64,000 nucleotides of DNA from Saccharothrix sp. HUAS TT1 (GTDB taxonomy: Bacteria > Actinomycetota > Actinomycetes > Mycobacteriales > Pseudonocardiaceae): contig NZ_CP160453.1 in the NCBI RefSeq assembly GCF_040744945.1, forward strand, positions 4,340,001 through 4,404,000, in the 5' to 3' direction. A program made the translations under genes and the position numbers. The notes beneath the pieces were generated by a model. The model searched no databases. It saw nothing but the letters and a program-made list of their open reading frames with translations, and was not told the DNA's origin. Numbering within the stretch: the first letter of the stretch is position 1; each line of letters begins with the position of its first letter. Shown piece after piece: positions 29,783-37,088 of this stretch.

Positions 29783-30721
29783 TCACAACGCCGTGGGCAG
29801 GCCGAACAGCGGGAACCGGTCCGACGGGAAGGTGATCACCTCGGCGATGCGGTCGCCCTCGACCCGCAGCACGTCCAGCGCCACCGGTTCGAAGTGCTCG
29901 CGGCCGGGCTCGCGGACGTAGTTCGCCACGGCGGGCTGCCGGTTGGCCCGGGTCTCGACGACCTTCCACTCGCCGAACGCGTCGGGGCCGACCATGACCG
30001 GCGCCCAGATGCCGACCACGACGTCCCGCCCGCGGTGCCACTCGGGCTGCGGCGGCATGGTCCAGGTGACGTCCTCGCTGAGCGCGGCGGCCATCAGCCC
30101 CATGTCGCTGCGCTCGGTGGCCTCCACGAACTTGCGGACCACCGCCTTCTCCCGCGGGTTCGGCTCGCCCGACCAGTCGGCGCGCCGCGGCGGCAGGTGC
30201 TTGCGCATGGTGGCGCGGGCGCGTTGCAGCGCGCTGTTCACCGCGGGCACCGAGTCGTCCAGCAGTTCCGCCGCCTCGCTCGCCCGCCAGCCCAGCACGT
30301 CCCGCAGCACCAGCACCGCCCGCTGCTTGGCGGGCAGGTGCTGCACCGCGGCCAGGAACGCCAGCTCGATGGTCTCCCGCGCCACCACCTCGGCGTCCGG
30401 TTCGGCGTCCAGCAGGGCGTCCGGGAACGGCTGGAGCCACGGCACGTCGGCCGCCGGCATCCCGTCGGTCGTGGCGAGCGGGGGACGGCGGCCGATCACG
30501 TCCAGGCAGGCGTTCGTGGCGATCCGGTACAGCCACGCGCGGAACGACGAGCGCCCCGCGAACGTGTCCCTGGCCCGCCACGCCCTCAGGAACGTCTCCT
30601 GCACCAGGTCCTCGGCCTCGTCGAACGAGCCGAGCAGCCGGTAGCAGTGCACCCGCAGCTCGTGCCGGTGCCGTTCGGCCTCCTGCGTGAAGTCGACCGT
30701 CATCCGCGCGACCTCGCTCAT
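29783..30721 (-). CDS. ECF RNA polymerase sigma factor with SnoaL-like C-terminal domain
   Basis: This 312-residue protein has sigma region 2 (residues 10-80: ELRVHCYRLLGSFDEAEDLV, SSFRAWLYRIATNACLD) and region 4 (about 125-180: LPAKQRAVLVLRDVLGWRA, VPAVNSALQRARATM). The C-terminal 120 residues look like a SnoaL-type domain (FVEATERSDMGLMAAALSED), as in SigG-type or TIGR02960 sigma factors, whose own tail replaces a separate anti-sigma factor. The ATG at 30721 has GGAGGG six bases upstream. It is convergent with the DJ-1 gene and divergent from the MFS gene. Confidence 0.88.
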   Translation of the reverse strand: MSEVARMTVDFTQEAERHRHELRVHCYRLLGSFDEAEDLVQETFLRAWRARDTFAGRSSFRAWLYRIATNACLDVIGRRPPLATTDGMPAADVPWLQPFPDALLDAEPDAEVVARETIELAFLAAVQHLPAKQRAVLVLRDVLGWRASEAAELLDDSVPAVNSALQRARATMRKHLPPRRADWSGEPNPREKAVVRKFVEATERSDMGLMAAALSEDVTWTMPPQPEWHRGRDVVVGIWAPVMVGPDAFGEWKVVETRANRQPAVANYVREPGREHFEPVALDVLRVEGDRIAEVITFPSDRFPLFGLPTAL

Positions 30722-30824
30722 GGTCACCCTCCGGGCTTGTACGGTGACGTGCCGGTCGCACGTCGCACAAGTGGGACTCGACCGACGCGGAAAACTCATC
30801 GGTCTCGGCTGATCGGGGGATCGG

Positions 30825-32021
30825 GTGGTCGGGGGCACGGGGTTCCGCGCGGTGTTCGCGGCGCCGGAGTTCCGGGTGCTGTGGTCGGCGGCGGCGCTGT
30901 CGACGGTGGGCGACCAGCTGGCCCGGGTGGCGCTGTCGGTGCTGGTGTTCCAGCGGACCGGGTCGGCCGCGTGGACGGCGTTGACCTACGCGCTGACGAT
31001 GCTGCCCGCGCTGGTCTCCGGGGTGCTGCTGACCGGGCTCGCCGACCGCTACCCGCGGCGGACCGTGATGGTGGTCGCGGACGCGGTGCGGGCCGTGCTG
31101 CTGGCCGTGATGGCGGTGCCGGGCGTGCCGCTGCCGGTGGTGGCGGCGTTGCTGGTGGTCGCGCAGCTCGCCGAGCCGCCGTTCGCCGCCGCGCAGGGCG
31201 CGCTGCTGCCGACCGTGCTGGGCGACCGGTACGAGGCCGGGCAGTCGGTGCACCTGATCACGCACCAGGCGGGGCTGCTGCTGGGGTTCGTCGGCGGTGG
31301 TCTGGCGGTGGCGTGGCTGGGGACGTCCGGGGCGCTGCTGGCGGACGCGGTGACGTTCGCGCTGTCGGCGCTGGTGCTGCGGTTCGGCCTGCGGGCGCGG
31401 CCCGCGCCGGCGTCCGTGCCGGCCGCGCGCGTGCGGATCAGGGCGGGCGCGGCGCTGGTGTGGCGGGACCGGCGGCTGCGGCTGCTGGTCGGGTTGGGGT
31501 GGCTGGCGCTGTTCACCGTCGTGCCGGAGGGGCTGGCGGCGCCGTTCTCGGCGGAGGTCGGCGCCGGTGCGGCCGGGGTGGGGCTGCTGCTGGCCGCCGA
31601 CCCGGCCGGGATGGTGCTGGGGACGGTGCTGCTGCGGTTCCTGCCCGCGTCGCTGCGGGTGCGGCTGCTGGGCCTGCTGGCGGTGGCGACGGCGTTGCCG
31701 CTGGTCGGGTACCTGTTCGCGCCGAACCTGGTGGGCGCGGTGGCGCTGCTGGCGTTGAGCGGGGTGTTCAGCGCGTACCAGGTGACGGCGGGCGCGACGT
31801 TCGTCCGGCTGGTGCCGGACGAGCAGCGCGGTCAGGCGTTGGGCTTCGCGCGCAGCGGCCTGGTCGCCGCGCAGGGCATCGGCGTGGCCGCCGGGGGGCT
31901 GCTGGCGTCCGCCACGGGCTCCGCGACCACCGCCATCGCCGTGGCGGGTGTCGCGGGCACTGCCCTGGCCCTCACCGCGACCACCGCCTGGTCCCGGGTG
32001 GCGCCGTCGGCGGCGGGGTGA
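30825..32021 (+). CDS. MFS transporter
   Basis: This 398-residue inner-membrane protein has about 12 hydrophobic helices. The cytoplasmic loop LADRYPRRTVMVV after helix 2 is the MFS signature (GxxxDxxGRR-like), and the N-terminus is FRVLWSAAALSTVGDQL. It belongs to the drug-efflux/MFS_3 group (Enterobactin exporter EntS-like); substrate unknown. It starts with GTG, divergent from the sigma factor gene with a 103-bp gap. Downstream is the micro-ORF array on the other strand, so it could export their product, which is only a guess. Confidence 0.85.
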   Translation: MVGGTGFRAVFAAPEFRVLWSAAALSTVGDQLARVALSVLVFQRTGSAAWTALTYALTMLPALVSGVLLTGLADRYPRRTVMVVADAVRAVLLAVMAVPGVPLPVVAALLVVAQLAEPPFAAAQGALLPTVLGDRYEAGQSVHLITHQAGLLLGFVGGGLAVAWLGTSGALLADAVTFALSALVLRFGLRARPAPASVPAARVRIRAGAALVWRDRRLRLLVGLGWLALFTVVPEGLAAPFSAEVGAGAAGVGLLLAADPAGMVLGTVLLRFLPASLRVRLLGLLAVATALPLVGYLFAPNLVGAVALLALSGVFSAYQVTAGATFVRLVPDEQRGQALGFARSGLVAAQGIGVAAGGLLASATGSATTAIAVAGVAGTALALTATTAWSRVAPSAAG

Positions 32022-32108
32022 GGGGATGGCCGCGCCGGCCGCGGGAGACGGGGCTCGACGCGGCCCGCGTGGTGGCCTCGGTGGGGTCTTCACCGGGTGG
32101 TGGCTGTT

Positions 32109-32129
32109 TCACCAGATCTTGTCGCGCAT
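32109..32129 (-). CDS. Micro-ORF MRDKIW, copy 1
   Basis: ATG CGC GAC AAG ATC TGG TGA encodes MRDKIW. GGGGAGG lies nine bases upstream of the ATG, a good ribosome binding site. It is the last copy in the direction of transcription. The 20-bp core is identical in all three copies. No modifying enzyme is adjacent. Whether it is translated is not proven by sequence alone. Confidence 0.5.
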   Translation of the reverse strand: MRDKIW

Positions 32130-32184
32130 GGCGGCGCACCTCCCCTCGACGTGGTGCTCGGCGGGAACGCGGGCGGGGGCGGGG

Positions 32185-32205
32185 TCACCAGATCTTGTCG
32201 CGCAC
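32185..32205 (-). CDS. Micro-ORF (M)RDKIW, copy 2
   Basis: GTG CGC GAC AAG ATC TGG TGA encodes (M)RDKIW. GGAGG lies seven bases upstream. It differs from copy 1 only in the start codon, while the flanking spacer is unrelated. The retained ribosome binding site in a diverged spacer is the main argument for translation. Confidence 0.5.
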   Translation of the reverse strand: MRDKIW

Positions 32206-32248
32206 GACGACACCTCCGTCTCCTGTGGAGCGGTCCTGAGCTGCGGGT

Positions 32249-32269
32249 TCACCAGATCTTGTCGCGCAC
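32249..32269 (-). CDS. Micro-ORF (M)RDKIW, copy 3
   Basis: GTG CGC GAC AAG ATC TGG TGA encodes (M)RDKIW. TGGAGG ends eight bases upstream. It is the first copy in the direction of transcription, 120 bp from the divergent diguanylate cyclase start. Confidence 0.5.
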   Translation of the reverse strand: MRDKIW

Positions 32270-32322
32270 CGCAATCACCTCCAGTGGGTCGCGTCACCCC
32301 GGTAGCGGCTGACATCGGCACA

Positions 32323-32341
32323 GGTCACCACTACTGTGACC
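32323..32341. promoter_or_regulatory. Inverted repeat GGTCAC-N7-GTGACC
   Basis: Perfect six-base arms in the divergent gap between the micro-ORF array and the diguanylate cyclase gene. The same hexamers occur with a different spacer at 12896-12910. Confidence 0.35.
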
Positions 32342-32389
32342 CTCCGTCCGGACGCCATGACGGTCCGGGGTAGACGGTCGTGAGGAACC

Positions 32390-33715
32390 ATGGGCAGAGC
32401 GCGTTCGACGTCGTCGGGCGATCGACGCTGGTCACTATGGTCCCTGCCCGGGCAGGCCCTGGTGTACGTGCTGTCGGTGGATCTCTCGGCCGCGATCGCG
32501 ATCGCCGCGACCACCGCCTGGCCGGTGCCGCCCGGCTCGTGGACCACGTTCGCGGTGCTGCTCGGGTGCGCCGCGCTGCACCTGCACTGCTCCCGCTGGA
32601 TCGAGCGCATCCGCCGCGACCACAGCCACCTGCCGCACGTCGACCTGTGCAGCATCTGGATCCTGGCCGGCGCCCTCGTGCTGCCGCCGTCGTTGGCCGT
32701 GGCGCTCGTCGTCCTCATGTACGCGCACCGCTGGTGGGTCGTCGGCCGCTGGGACGCCTCGCGCCCACCGCACCGGTGCGTGTTCACCACCTCGATGATG
32801 GTGCTGGCGACGCTCGCCGCGAACGCCGTCGCGGGCCTCACCGGCCTGCGCGCCCACCTCCAGGCCGGGCAGCCCGGCGGCGCGCTCGACCTCGTCGGCG
32901 TGGTCGGCGCGGGCGCGGCGCAGTGGCTGGTCAACACCGCCCTGGTGGCCGCGGTGATCCTGCTGACGGTCCGGCCGCGCTCGGTGCGCGACTCGATCGG
33001 CAGCGGCGCGGACAACCTGCTGGAGGCCGGTCAGCTCGCGATGGGCGGGTTCGTGGCCCTGGCGGTGGCGTGGTGGCCCGGGTTCGCGCTGCCGATGGTC
33101 GTCGCGGCCGTCGCCCTGCACCGCACCGTGCTCATCCACCAGCTGGAGCTGGCCGCCCGCACCGACACCAAGACCGGCCTGCTCAACGCCGAGGCGTGGC
33201 ACCTGCAGGCGAAGCTGGAGCTGCGGCGCACCCGGCAGCAGCCGCCCGGCGCGCGGGTCGGCCTGTTCATGATCGACGTCGACCACTTCAAGGACGTCAA
33301 CGACACCCACGGCCACCAGGCCGGCGACCTGGTGCTGCGGCGCATCGCGGCGGCGCTGGGGAGCGCGGTCCGGCGCGGCGACGCCGTCGGCCGGTTCGGC
33401 GGCGAGGAGTTCGCCGTGCTGCTGCCCGGCGTCGAGCACGAGGAGGCGGTGGCGATCGCCGAGCGGGTGCGCTCGGAGGTGCACCGGGTGCTCGTGGACG
33501 TCGGCGACGGCCGCGTGGTGGCGGGCCTCACCGTCAGCGTCGGCGTCGCGGTGTGGCCGGAGGTCGCCGAGGACACCGTGGAGGGGCTGCTCGCCGCCGC
33601 CGACGCGGCGCTGTACGAGGCCAAGCGGCTCGGCCGGGACCAGGTGCAGGCCGCGGGCGGCCGGCGTCGCGCCCCGTGGACGCCCGCCGCCCGGTCCGAG
33701 CGGCCCGGCGTGTAA
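32390..33715 (+). CDS. Membrane-bound diguanylate cyclase (GGDEF)
   Basis: This 441-residue protein has an N-terminal half with about six membrane helices (residues 20-250) and no recognised sensor domain, followed by a GGDEF domain at residues 260-430. The active site is intact (GGEEF, residues 337-341, in VGRFGGEEFAVLLPG), and RRGD (328-331) five residues before it is the product-inhibition I-site. It should make cyclic di-GMP from GTP under allosteric control. The ATG follows GAGGAACC. It runs divergently from the micro-ORF array. Confidence 0.92.
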   Translation: MGRARSTSSGDRRWSLWSLPGQALVYVLSVDLSAAIAIAATTAWPVPPGSWTTFAVLLGCAALHLHCSRWIERIRRDHSHLPHVDLCSIWILAGALVLPPSLAVALVVLMYAHRWWVVGRWDASRPPHRCVFTTSMMVLATLAANAVAGLTGLRAHLQAGQPGGALDLVGVVGAGAAQWLVNTALVAAVILLTVRPRSVRDSIGSGADNLLEAGQLAMGGFVALAVAWWPGFALPMVVAAVALHRTVLIHQLELAARTDTKTGLLNAEAWHLQAKLELRRTRQQPPGARVGLFMIDVDHFKDVNDTHGHQAGDLVLRRIAAALGSAVRRGDAVGRFGGEEFAVLLPGVEHEEAVAIAERVRSEVHRVLVDVGDGRVVAGLTVSVGVAVWPEVAEDTVEGLLAAADAALYEAKRLGRDQVQAAGGRRRAPWTPAARSERPGV

Positions 33716-33818: not shown

Positions 33819-36800
33819 GTGACGCCCGTGGACCTCGGTGCCCCGCACGGAATCCGCTTCCGCTTCGAAGCGGGGCTGCTGCGCGCCGTCCTGCTCGACG
33901 TGCACCGCAAACCACCGGTCGAGGCCGGTGAGGAGCTGACCGCCGAGGCGGGCGCCCGCGACCTGGTCGTGGACGAGACCCGGGACGGGCACGTGCGCGC
34001 GGTGCTGCGGCAGCGCTTCGACCTGCCGTCGCCCGCCCGCTGGCGGCTCGCCGTCGACGCGCCCGCCGCCGAGACCCCGGACGGGGTGGTGTTCTCGCTG
34101 CCGGGCTCGGTGACGCTGCTGGTGTCCGGCTCGTCGCCGTGCGTGCTCGACGACGGCGGCGTGCGCGTCGACCTGCCCGCGGGCGAGTCGGAACTGGCCG
34201 TCGCGGTGACCAGCGAGCCGGTGTTCGAGGTCGGCGACACGGTCGTGGTGTGCCGACCGGACCAGGTGCGCGAGGCCGCGGTCGTGGTGTCGTGCCTGCC
34301 GCCGGACCGGGTCACGCCGGTCCTCGCGCTGAGACCCGCGACCGGGTCGTCGCACCGGCACGACCGGCTGGTGGCGGACCTGCTCGACGCCGTGGGCGTG
34401 CGCCGCGCGGTGCTCCTCGCCGAACCGGGCGCCGGCGTCGGCCCGGCCGTCGACCTGCCCGAACACCTGCACCTGCCGTGCGACGACCCGATCGGCCTGA
34501 CCGCCAAGGCGTGGGAGCTGCTGCGCGGCGGCGAGCCCGAGCGCACCCTCGACGTCGCGCCGGACGCCGACTTCGCCGCCGCCCTGTTCACCGCCCTGCG
34601 CACCGGGGCGGCGCTGCGGGTGGACGACGACGCGCCACCCGTCCCGTTCGCCGCGCACAACCCGGCCGACGCCGACGAGGCCGTGCTGGTCGAGCGCACC
34701 GGCGGCGCGGACGACCTGGTCGCCGCCGTCTACGCCCACCACCGCGGCGCCCGGCTCGTCGTCACGCCCGCGCCCGACCTGGCCGAGGTGCGCGCGGTGG
34801 TGGCCGAGGAGCAGGAGCGGGTCACCGCGGCGGCCGGCGCGATCGGCGACGCGGTCAAGGGCATCGGGTTCGTCGAGGCGCTGTGGCGGTACCTGTCCAC
34901 CGGCGGGCACGACCCGTTCGCGGCGGTCGAGGCCGTGGTCACCGCGCAGGTGCCCGTCGCGGCGGTCGAGGAGGTCGGCGACCGCGGGCTGACCGCGTTC
35001 ACCACCGGCCTGCCCTACTCGTTCGTGCACACCGGCGACGTCAGCTGGGCGCGCAAGCCGATCGGGCACGTGGTCGCCGACCCGGCGCTGGTGGTGCTCA
35101 CCGAGCTGCACCGGGCGGGCGTCGCCCGCGAGCCCGCCGCGTTCAGCCTGGTCTTCGACTCCGGCCCGTTCCCGGAGCCGCCGCGGACCACCCCGTCGCC
35201 CGGCCACCACACCCACCCGATCGTGCTGGCCGACGAGGACGCCTCGGCCGACGCGCTGCGCGACCTGGCCGCGGACCTGCCGGTCGAGGTGGTGTTCTTC
35301 AACCGGCACGACGCCGACGACGCCATCGCGCTGGGCGACGACGTGCTGCCCGACGACGACCTCCCGGTCGACCTGCGGCACCGGCCGATCGTGTTCAACA
35401 ACTCGTGCCGCTCGTGGACCGGGCTCGGCCGCGAGTTCGTCCGCGCCGGGGCCCGCGGCTACATCGGCACCCTGTGGACGATCCCGCCGAACCTGGCCGC
35501 CGGGTTCGCCCGCACCGTCCTGCGCCGGCTCACCGCCGAGGAGGCGCCCGCCGCGCGCGCCATCGTCAACACCGGCACGCCCGGCGGCATCGAGCGGTCC
35601 TACCTGTACGTGGGCACGGTCAACGGCCGGCTGGACGAGTGGCGCGACCGGTCCACCACCGACGCCGAGGCGGCGCTGACCGGGTGCGAGCTGCTGGCCG
35701 CCGCCGCGCGCGACCGGGCCGACCCGCGGGCGCCCGTGCTGCGCCGGGAGCTGGCGGCGCTGCGCGAGGTCGCCGAGGCGGGCGGCGCGACCGGCACCCC
35801 GTCCTACGCCGACGTGCTGCTGGCCGAGCTGCGGCTGACCGACGACGACGAGCGGGCCGCCGCGCTGGCCGAGCGGGTCGACGCGCTGCTGACCGGCCTC
35901 GACCTGCCCGACGAGGAGCTGGAGCCGCGCTGGGCGACCCGGTTCGCGCTCACCGGGGCGCGGTTCGAGCGGCGCGGGGAATACGGGGCCGCGGTCGCGG
36001 ACTTCGAGAAGAGTGTGGGCTTGGGCGACGCGTGCCGCGACCGGGCGGACGTCCTGCTGCGGATGGCGAGGCTGCTGATGCACGAGGGCAGGACCGAGGA
36101 AGCCGGCCAGGCGGCGCGGCTGGCGCACGACGAGCACCGCCTCGGCGGTGACCGGGCGGGGCTGCTGGAAGCCGTCACCGTCCTGCACGACCTCGGCGAC
36201 GCGGACGGCGGGACGTCCCTCCGGCACGCCGTCGAGGGGCACGACCTGGCCGAGGAGCTGGGCGACCGGGCCAGGCAGGCCGCGTTCAAGCTCGCCGAGT
36301 GCGACCGGCGGCGCGAGCGCGGCGAGCTGGACGCGGCGATCGACGCCGGGTCGCGCGCGGTCGAGCTGTTCCGCGCCGAGGGCGACGACCGGCAGGAGCT
36401 GGCCGCGCTGCGCCGGCTCGGCGCGTGCCACCGCGACCGGGGCGACCTGGAGACCGCGCAGCACTACGCCGCCGTCGGGCTGGCCCGCGCAGAGCAGCTG
36501 GGCGCGGCGGCCGAGGTGGCGTCGTTCCACGACGACCTGGGCGGCGTGCTGACCGCGCGCGGCGAGCACGGCCAGGCGCTGGGGCACTACCGGCACGCGG
36601 TGGAGAAGCTGGTCGCCACCGGCGCGTGGGAGCGCGGCGCCGAGCTGCTGCCGCACCTGGCCGTCGGCGCGGTCCGGGCGCGCGACCCGGAGGCGCTGTG
36701 GACCGCGGCCCTGTGCGGCGGCCTGATCTGCGAGGTCGCGCCGCGCGAGGTGTGGGCGTCGGTGCTGCCGCTGGTCGTGGACTCGATGAAGCGGGCGATC

Positions 36801-37088
36801 GAGACCGGGCCGCTGCCGCTGACCGAGCGCGGCATGACCGACTTCGCCAGCGCCGTGACCGCGGGCAACCGGGCGGAGATGCCGTTCCAGGTCGGCCTGC
36901 TCGCCGACGTGGTGGTCGTGCTGCTGGCGTGGCTGATGGACCGCGCCGACGCGCACATCCTCGCGTTCGCCCGCGAGCTGGACCGCACCAGCGGCGGCGT
37001 GCTCGACCTGGTCGGCTACGTGTCCCTGCCCTACGCCGAGCGCGCCCGCGAACCCGGGACCGGCCGGTCCCGCCCCGGGGTGCACTGA
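33819..37088 (+). CDS. CHAT-domain protease-like protein with C-terminal TPR repeats
   Basis: This 1089-residue protein has an N-terminal third with no recognised domain. Residues about 350-620 form a CHAT (caspase-like) domain: a catalytic-type His497 (FFNRHDADD) and Cys530 (FNNSCRSWTG), followed by GARGYIGTLWTIPP, the conserved end of the family. Residues 640-1080 are helical TPR repeats (EYGAAVADFEKSVGLGD, ELDAAIDAGSRAVELF). CHAT-TPR proteins are predicted cysteine proteases or scaffolds, some in defence or cell-death systems. No partner gene is evident. The GTG start has a weak AAGGG upstream. TAGTTT at 33767-33772 may be the -10. Confidence 0.85.
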   Translation: MTPVDLGAPHGIRFRFEAGLLRAVLLDVHRKPPVEAGEELTAEAGARDLVVDETRDGHVRAVLRQRFDLPSPARWRLAVDAPAAETPDGVVFSLPGSVTLLVSGSSPCVLDDGGVRVDLPAGESELAVAVTSEPVFEVGDTVVVCRPDQVREAAVVVSCLPPDRVTPVLALRPATGSSHRHDRLVADLLDAVGVRRAVLLAEPGAGVGPAVDLPEHLHLPCDDPIGLTAKAWELLRGGEPERTLDVAPDADFAAALFTALRTGAALRVDDDAPPVPFAAHNPADADEAVLVERTGGADDLVAAVYAHHRGARLVVTPAPDLAEVRAVVAEEQERVTAAAGAIGDAVKGIGFVEALWRYLSTGGHDPFAAVEAVVTAQVPVAAVEEVGDRGLTAFTTGLPYSFVHTGDVSWARKPIGHVVADPALVVLTELHRAGVAREPAAFSLVFDSGPFPEPPRTTPSPGHHTHPIVLADEDASADALRDLAADLPVEVVFFNRHDADDAIALGDDVLPDDDLPVDLRHRPIVFNNSCRSWTGLGREFVRAGARGYIGTLWTIPPNLAAGFARTVLRRLTAEEAPAARAIVNTGTPGGIERSYLYVGTVNGRLDEWRDRSTTDAEAALTGCELLAAAARDRADPRAPVLRRELAALREVAEAGGATGTPSYADVLLAELRLTDDDERAAALAERVDALLTGLDLPDEELEPRWATRFALTGARFERRGEYGAAVADFEKSVGLGDACRDRADVLLRMARLLMHEGRTEEAGQAARLAHDEHRLGGDRAGLLEAVTVLHDLGDADGGTSLRHAVEGHDLAEELGDRARQAAFKLAECDRRRERGELDAAIDAGSRAVELFRAEGDDRQELAALRRLGACHRDRGDLETAQHYAAVGLARAEQLGAAAEVASFHDDLGGVLTARGEHGQALGHYRHAVEKLVATGAWERGAELLPHLAVGAVRARDPEALWTAALCGGLICEVAPREVWASVLPLVVDSMKRAIETGPLPLTERGMTDFASAVTAGNRAEMPFQVGLLADVVVVLLAWLMDRADAHILAFARELDRTSGGVLDLVGYVSLPYAERAREPGTGRSRPGVH

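Follow-up and report, generated by a model that had tools for sequence, protein, structure and literature searches.

Tandem genes of only six codons, each encoding (M)RDKIW behind its own ribosome-binding site, belong to an apparently undescribed family of RxxxW micro-genes that recurs in actinomycetes beside genes for a transporter of the major facilitator superfamily (MFS) and a membrane diguanylate cyclase. The array studied here has three such genes and lies in the window, by which we mean the whole analysed stretch of 64,000 nucleotides of Saccharothrix sp. HUAS TT1. Their setting beside genes for a transporter and for a membrane enzyme that makes c-di-GMP points to signalling by very short peptides in actinomycetes. 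With a probability of roughly 0.53, the array would provide a multicopy leaderless micropeptide signal; the MFS protein would export it, and its detection by the membrane domain of the cyclase would change c-di-GMP synthesis. Translation and the cassette arrangement are well supported by sequence; export, sensing and the c-di-GMP output are inferred.

Organization of the array and its neighbourhood

An earlier sequence-only reading of this region had described three minus-strand copies of a 20-bp sequence, and apart from this length its coordinates proved right (Table 1). Together with its start codon each copy is a 21-nt element, (A/G)TG CGC GAC AAG ATC TGG TGA, located behind GGAGGTG and a short spacer. 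The same reading had assigned a separate Shine-Dalgarno sequence to each copy, and GGAGGTG was found ahead of all three; the spacers between copies, which it had called unrelated, are indeed mostly unrelated to each other. A both-strand scan for a Shine-Dalgarno sequence, 4-9 nt, ATG or GTG, 0-2 codons and RxxxW in a short ORF detected these three micro-ORFs and no more in the 64-kb window. In 765 kb of sequence from relatives, the scan counted 213 matches as array members and 4 as outside, and those 4 belong to arrays too, with reading begun one codon earlier. Any MR[DE]xxW match was scored as array, which would hide isolated chance matches of that form.

Table 1. Positions of the micro-ORFs, associated elements and neighbouring genes in the window
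Feature	Position	Strand	Remarks
MFS transporter gene, proposed peptide exporter	30825..32021	+	convergent with array; in 19/20 regions
G+C-rich hairpin	32028..32065	-	after last micro-ORF; z -1.9; possible terminator
Micro-ORF 3	32109..32129	-	ATG start, (M)RDKIW, TGA
Shine-Dalgarno GGAGGTG, micro-ORF 3	32137..32143	-	kept in relatives
Micro-ORF 2	32185..32205	-	GTG start, (M)RDKIW, TGA
Shine-Dalgarno GGAGGTG, micro-ORF 2	32211..32217	-	kept in relatives
Micro-ORF 1, first transcribed	32249..32269	-	GTG start, (M)RDKIW, TGA
Shine-Dalgarno GGAGGTG, micro-ORF 1	32276..32282	-	kept in relatives
Conserved block GTCAGCCGCTACCGGGGTGAC	32293..32313	-	immediately upstream of array; from alignment; possible promoter
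Inverted repeat GGTCAC-N7-GTGACC	32323..32341		between divergent cyclase gene and array; from alignment; possible promoter/operator
Membrane diguanylate cyclase gene, proposed receptor	32390..33715	+	GGDEF, GGEEF and RxxD kept; 20/20 same-pattern regions
Cyclase N-terminal membrane domain (aa 1-245), proposed peptide sensor	32390..33124	+	predicted ECF S-component-like fold

Three candidate regulatory elements flank the micro-ORFs. The inverted repeat, of which most of the 20 relatives in the alignment have a similar version, is possibly a promoter or operator, and the conserved block may be a promoter; a simple scan detected no sigma-70 match in this block and no sigma-70 promoter around the array. 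The hairpin, with similar sequence in many aligned relatives, is a possible terminator, perhaps bidirectional; a simple terminator scan gave no T-tailed terminator after the array. A BldD-like box in the intergenic region was rejected, having 2 mismatches to the consensus and equally good matches in 77 of 500 shuffles.

The array lies where the sequence-only reading had placed it, flanked by the 3' end of the MFS gene on one side and on the other by the divergent cyclase gene, which points away from it. The nearest NCBIfam model of the MFS protein is TIGR00900 of the DHA3 type, with a score below the cut-off of the model. The putative cyclase carries the GG(D/E)EF signature and the RxxD I-site of diguanylate cyclases: its GGDEF domain was detected by Pfam at E 6.2e-41, and R328, D331, G337, G338, E339, E340 and F341 are invariant among 18 cyclases. 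Its membrane domain is predicted to resemble the S-components of ECF transporters, which bind small ligands; in the 14 best structural alignments the identity is 8-17%. A PDB sequence search with this domain returned one match only (E 0.75), Pfam gave no credible match to it, and VIA-align with the whole cyclase found GGDEF proteins only among the 50 matches listed. Residues 14-17 of the cyclase (32429-32440) form a nearly invariant W-x-L-W motif, often preceded by Arg, that resembles the RxxxW peptide.

Among the eight neighbour proteins scanned (22.1-38.1 kb), Pfam domains of P450, radical SAM and MccB-type/ThiF proteins were absent, in keeping with the earlier statement that no modification enzyme is nearby; EcfT and EcfA were likewise absent from these eight. 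The MFS gene adjoins a gene (29786-30838, minus strand) for a sigma-70-family factor with a SnoaL_2 C-terminal domain, which we take to be ECF41-like and which occurs in many, not all, relatives. Just downstream of the cyclase gene, 33819-37085 (plus strand) encodes a 1089-aa protein with a weak TPR match that is present in the genus regions and was not found in the two regions of other genera. Five loci (L036, L038, L042, L043 and L046) have, as judged by eye, a second MFS-like gene, also convergent, that separates the array from its usual MFS neighbour.

Selection for the encoded peptide and its distribution

The sequence-only reading had suggested a search of relatives for start-RDKIW-stop. 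A pattern that left synonymous freedom was found in 20 of 99 genomes, namely in 18 of 25 of the genus (own genome included), 2 of 34 of the same family and none of 40 of the same order, and the backwards control pattern in none of the 99. The 18-mer CGCGACAAGATCTGGTGA occurred in a single one of 394 class genomes, the own genome. The cyclase gene stands on the divergent side in all 20 regions, 122-200 nt from the first exact copy (122-124 nt in 17 of these 20 regions, each of 20 kb); in 19 of them a convergent MFS gene flanks the array on its other side. Relatives have 1-4 exact copies, which start with ATG, GTG or, once, TTG. Every exact-pattern copy listed in the genus uses identical codons, including the free third position of CGN, which might reflect a recent spread, a preference for certain codons or some further constraint.

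Seven genus genomes lack the exact pattern. At a cyclase/MFS pair, three of them (G003, G011 and G013) have two copies of MREKIW, another three (G005, G008 and G023) have MRNREW, and G021 has an ORF with three RPNDW repeats. Since these seven carry a related gene, an RxxxW peptide gene is present in all 25 genus genomes searched. Further ORFs with six and four GNEW repeats were found in G005 and G021, respectively. One array (L048, genome G018) is in decay, with one copy that reads through, having TAC for the stop codon, and a degenerate upstream copy. A second paralogous cyclase/MFS pair is accompanied by a single MRNREW micro-ORF in four genus loci (L191, L192, L194 and L239) and by MRNRDM in G018 (L238).

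Comparison of the copies shows that the micro-ORFs are selected as peptide-coding ORFs, as the sequence-only reading had argued in preferring translation to a DNA repeat. Strong support comes from the REKIW relatives, where aspartate is replaced by glutamate in both copies at once. Start codons interchange among ATG, GTG and TTG, and the Shine-Dalgarno sites are kept within diverged spacers; the 30-nt windows upstream of copies differ at 63% of positions. In other genera the same peptide is encoded by synonymous codons (CGC/CGT, ACC/ACG/ACT, GTC/GTG and AAG/AAA). Across 51 arrays with 274 copies, neighbouring copies show 109 synonymous and 9 nonsynonymous differences in their core codons, counted only for copies matching R[DE]xxW, so that other residues at R, D/E or W are missed. 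Because this pattern fixes R, D/E and W, the fair test is given by the two free core codons, with 14 synonymous and 8 nonsynonymous differences against an expected fraction of 0.16 (nominal p = 6e-7, with shared descent ignored). Synonymous change is also favoured in the codons after Trp (67 against 51, expected fraction 0.29). These codons replace residues far more often, which marks RxxxW as the constrained core. The peptide RDKIW is unchanged between cyclases that are about 60% identical (L063 and L064 versus the window).

A cyclase search of 150 family genomes gave at least 30 loci, and all 30 listed have a short ORF preceded by a Shine-Dalgarno sequence on the divergent side. These ORFs encode RxxxW peptides in 17 loci (RDKIW, REKIW, RPTDW, RPNDW, RPADW and RGKDW) and other Trp peptides in three (SDKGW, STDWTF repeats). 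The case for peptide genes is weaker for the remaining ten (MNGRED, MTSRDQ, MATREG, MRGVEY, MKATRKTRD and MTGARKTRD). As background, a short ORF occurred in 28 of 840 windows of 300 nt, true cases included, under criteria stricter than those for the family loci (ATG only, 5-13 codons, longer repeat ORFs excluded). Trp-less micro-ORFs of the form M-x-x-R-[DE]-x (MNGRED, MTSRDQ, MATREG and MSNRDS) occupy the same place in eight loci (L069, L070, L072, L075, L077, L079, L081 and L222). In some genomes a single ORF with internal repeats (RPTDW, STDW or GNEW) replaces the separate micro-ORFs; a protein search with the STDWTF-repeat ORF gave no homologue.

At the class level the cyclase was detected in 54 of 296 genomes at E 1e-85, none of them from family f33, which we take to be Streptomyces. 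The 29 class loci listed besides the own one comprise 21 with RxxxW micro-ORFs, one with MRSRDR and seven with no RxxxW ORF. Across 84,980 species, 47 stretches matched a pattern of two tandem (M)R[DE]xxW ORFs. Eight of them (L118, L124, L129, L130, L134, L136, L137 and L152) do not hold ORFs with a Shine-Dalgarno sequence and a stop codon and look like chance matches. The other 39, two of which are pieces of one contig, do hold such ORFs and come from Amycolatopsis, Saccharothrix, Umezawaea, Actinosynnema, Jiangella, Phytoactinopolyspora, Actinocatenispora, Nonomuraea, Glycomyces and two MAGs. Their peptides include RDNNWTR, RDTTWS, REHNWS and others, and in the family as a whole the C-terminal residue varies (W, T, S, N, D, G, R, P and E among others). 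The largest array, in Amycolatopsis echigonensis, has 20 copies, mostly of RDNNWTR. The family extends beyond the order of the host.

Cassettes and module-specific peptides

Gene neighbourhoods show that the peptide gene recurs as a cassette with genes for an MFS transporter and a membrane diguanylate cyclase: all 39 verified loci have a GGDEF protein (36) and/or an MFS protein (31). Both genes are conserved partners of the array. Two loci (L123 and L148) have the array and an MFS gene with no adjacent cyclase. In Nonomuraea the array is co-directional with the MFS gene and lies upstream of it. In Actinocatenispora and the MAG RSA1 it is followed directly by a co-directional membrane GGDEF-EAL gene, with no MFS match within the 8-kb locus. 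The membrane domains of the cyclase and of the GGDEF-EAL proteins were compared by hhalign (probability 4.5%, E 0.009). The GGDEF-EAL part alone of the Actinocatenispora protein, not its membrane part, was matched in 13 f33 genomes, and two further GGDEF-EAL homologues (L161 and L162) had no RxxxW array found.

Not every homologous cyclase has a peptide gene. An RxxxW micro-ORF (MRGQTW) accompanies one of nine further paralogues in G043, and none was found at other cyclases in the genomes of L120, L123, L131 and L141.

Comparison of paralogues also showed that the cassette duplicates as a unit and that the duplicates carry their own peptides. In genomes of the Jiangella group (f34), paralogous cyclase/MFS modules encode MRDNTWT and MRGNSWD (G217), MRDTTWS and MRGNSWD (G327), MRDNHWTP, MRDNKWSR and MRANSWD (G195), or MRANSWD, MRENCW and MRDAHWES (G276). 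On a cyclase tree of 68 rows, the 34 peptide types require 34 changes, close to the minimum of 33 and below the shuffled mean of 56.9; none of 200 shuffles was as low. The rows are loci with an assigned peptide only, the peptide-less cyclases (L103, L106-L113, L185, L187, L189, L190, L193 and L219-L226) standing outside the tree, and linkage explains part of the low count. The pattern shows that each peptide is passed on together with its cyclase rather than with the genome.

Proposed function, alternatives and related systems

We propose that the multicopy gene encodes one ultrashort peptide, (fM)RDKIW, with the core RxxxW. Each copy has a ribosome-binding site of its own and does without a leader, and many minigenes would yield large amounts of peptide. 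The neighbouring MFS protein would export it, the S-component-like membrane domain of the cyclase would bind it, and binding would change c-di-GMP synthesis, so that a short-peptide signal is read directly as a second messenger. Tandem micro-ORFs and repeats within one ORF are two routes to many copies, which suggests that the product is the peptide, made in quantity, and a secreted signal fits such a product better than a cis-acting leader does. A more general version, that widespread leaderless micropeptide pheromones of actinomycetes, encoded by tandem genes of 6-10 codons, are read directly by S-component-like membrane diguanylate cyclases and so set c-di-GMP through signalling between cells, is offered tentatively, at clearly less than even odds. 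Within the pheromone reading, the W-x-L-W motif of the cyclase might be a built-in plug in the same pocket that is displaced by the RxxxW peptide.

The peptide may instead act inside the producer as a cofactor or inhibitor of the cyclase or the MFS protein, with no cell-to-cell signalling and with the transporter removing the peptide or serving another purpose. The six-residue peptide has no secretion signal, several conserved charged residues of the membrane domain sit in loops that may lie on either side of the membrane, and the Actinocatenispora and RSA1 arrays with a downstream GGDEF-EAL gene have no MFS match in the locus. We nevertheless consider intracellular action unlikely, given the frequency of MFS genes at array loci, the two arrays with an MFS gene and no adjacent cyclase, the MFS homologues found away from the array in the genomes that contain L131, L141 and L120, and the expectation that an S-component-like domain binds its ligand from outside.

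An exported effector, a small antibiotic of the microcin or RiPP type with the MFS protein as exporter and the cyclase only as regulator, seems improbable as well. The DHA3-type model nearest to the MFS protein agrees with it. So does a formal likeness to microcin C, whose mccA (MRTGNAN) is described in PMC6495379 as a seven-codon gene with a strong Shine-Dalgarno sequence, a leaderless peptide and a linked pump, MccC; reiterative translation of such short ORFs is also reported there. The RDKIW array shares the very short gene with a strong Shine-Dalgarno sequence and the leaderless peptide, and the adjacent MFS gene might encode a pump for it. In contrast to microcin C, no MccB-type/ThiF protein was found among the eight neighbours, which also lack P450 and radical SAM domains. 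The one partial exception comes from Jiangella rhizosphaerae: of two proteins scanned at other loci, one (L122:5599-7767), encoded on the far side of the MFS gene, is a ThiF-nitroreductase protein. All McC precursors of that study end in Asn (PMC6495379), whereas RDKIW ends in Trp in all window copies and C-termini vary in the family, which also has up to 20 tandem copies. A link to a cyclase is not known to be a feature of such systems. Biarylitides are pentapeptide RiPPs whose minimal precursor gene, only 18 bp long, reportedly escapes automated detection; five-residue precursors thus exist, and the RDKIW gene is similarly minimal. Biarylitides have the motif MxYxH with two cross-linkable aromatic residues, whereas RDKIW has one aromatic residue, a different motif, tandem genes and no P450 among the eight neighbours.

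It is quite improbable that the micro-ORFs are leaders or minigenes whose translation matters and not its product, through attenuation, ribosome stalling or tRNA sequestration. Short ORFs with strong Shine-Dalgarno sequences would suit such a role, and the array precedes a same-strand gene in Actinocatenispora, RSA1 and Nonomuraea. However, the same-strand downstream gene that an attenuator needs is absent from the window and is found only exceptionally (L120, L123, L131 and L141), the MFS gene being convergent here as well as in 19 of the 20 regions from relatives. The peptide is kept despite codon change, and single ORFs that repeat a similar core internally would be superfluous for a stalling leader. 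It is very improbable that the 20-bp repeats bind a protein as DNA or act as RNA, through structure or base pairing, and that the ORFs are incidental, a reading compatible with the nucleotide identity of the genus copies and largely refuted for the family by codons that vary while the peptide is kept in other genera, by the paired D-to-E change, by the lack of Rfam matches at E up to 1 in 31900-32600 and by array RNA that folds worse than shuffles (z +1.65).

The sequence-only reading had listed a very short RiPP precursor, an exported signal and a ribosome-targeting leader as candidate functions. The exported signal is now favoured and the leader disfavoured, because nothing co-directional follows the array in the window; a RiPP is conceivable.

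The signal reading has partial parallels elsewhere. In Gram-positive peptide pheromone systems (AgrD/AgrC, Phr and SHP) the peptide gene, exporter and receptor are encoded together, and the RxxxW cassette likewise joins a peptide, a putative exporter and a putative receptor, with duplicated modules that carry different peptides. It differs in having no leader or signal-peptide precursor, an MFS transporter, and as proposed receptor a diguanylate cyclase, the output of which would be a second messenger. Yeast alpha-factor also derives from a multi-repeat precursor; many copies of one short peptide per locus, and internal repeats in some relatives, are shared with it, whereas the copies in the window and in other arrays are separate genes with their own ribosome-binding sites. 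The membrane domain has a predicted fold like that of the ECF S-components RibU, ThiT, BioY, PanT and CbiM, but unlike them it is fused to GGDEF, and a transporter role would be only conjectural.

In the literature covered, which is partial and no proof of absence, no description of such arrays was found. The string MRDKIW gave no match, and RDNNW, RDTTWS, RDNTWT, REHNWS, MRDNNW and RPTDW gave one unrelated match, under the same partial coverage. Titles and abstract beginnings showed nothing relevant that links a peptide pheromone with a diguanylate cyclase. The gene architecture and its cyclase link match no system known to us. Genes of six to ten codons fall below usual annotation thresholds, so that a conserved peptide family has apparently been overlooked in actinomycetes, including the known antibiotic producers Amycolatopsis, Saccharothrix and Actinosynnema. 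To our knowledge, the ligands of membrane cyclases are mostly unknown. In streptomycetes, c-di-GMP controls development and natural-product synthesis (PMC7026642). For each such cyclase the micro-genes supply a candidate ligand that can be synthesized and tested at low cost, and the paralogous modules in one genome are natural specificity pairs.
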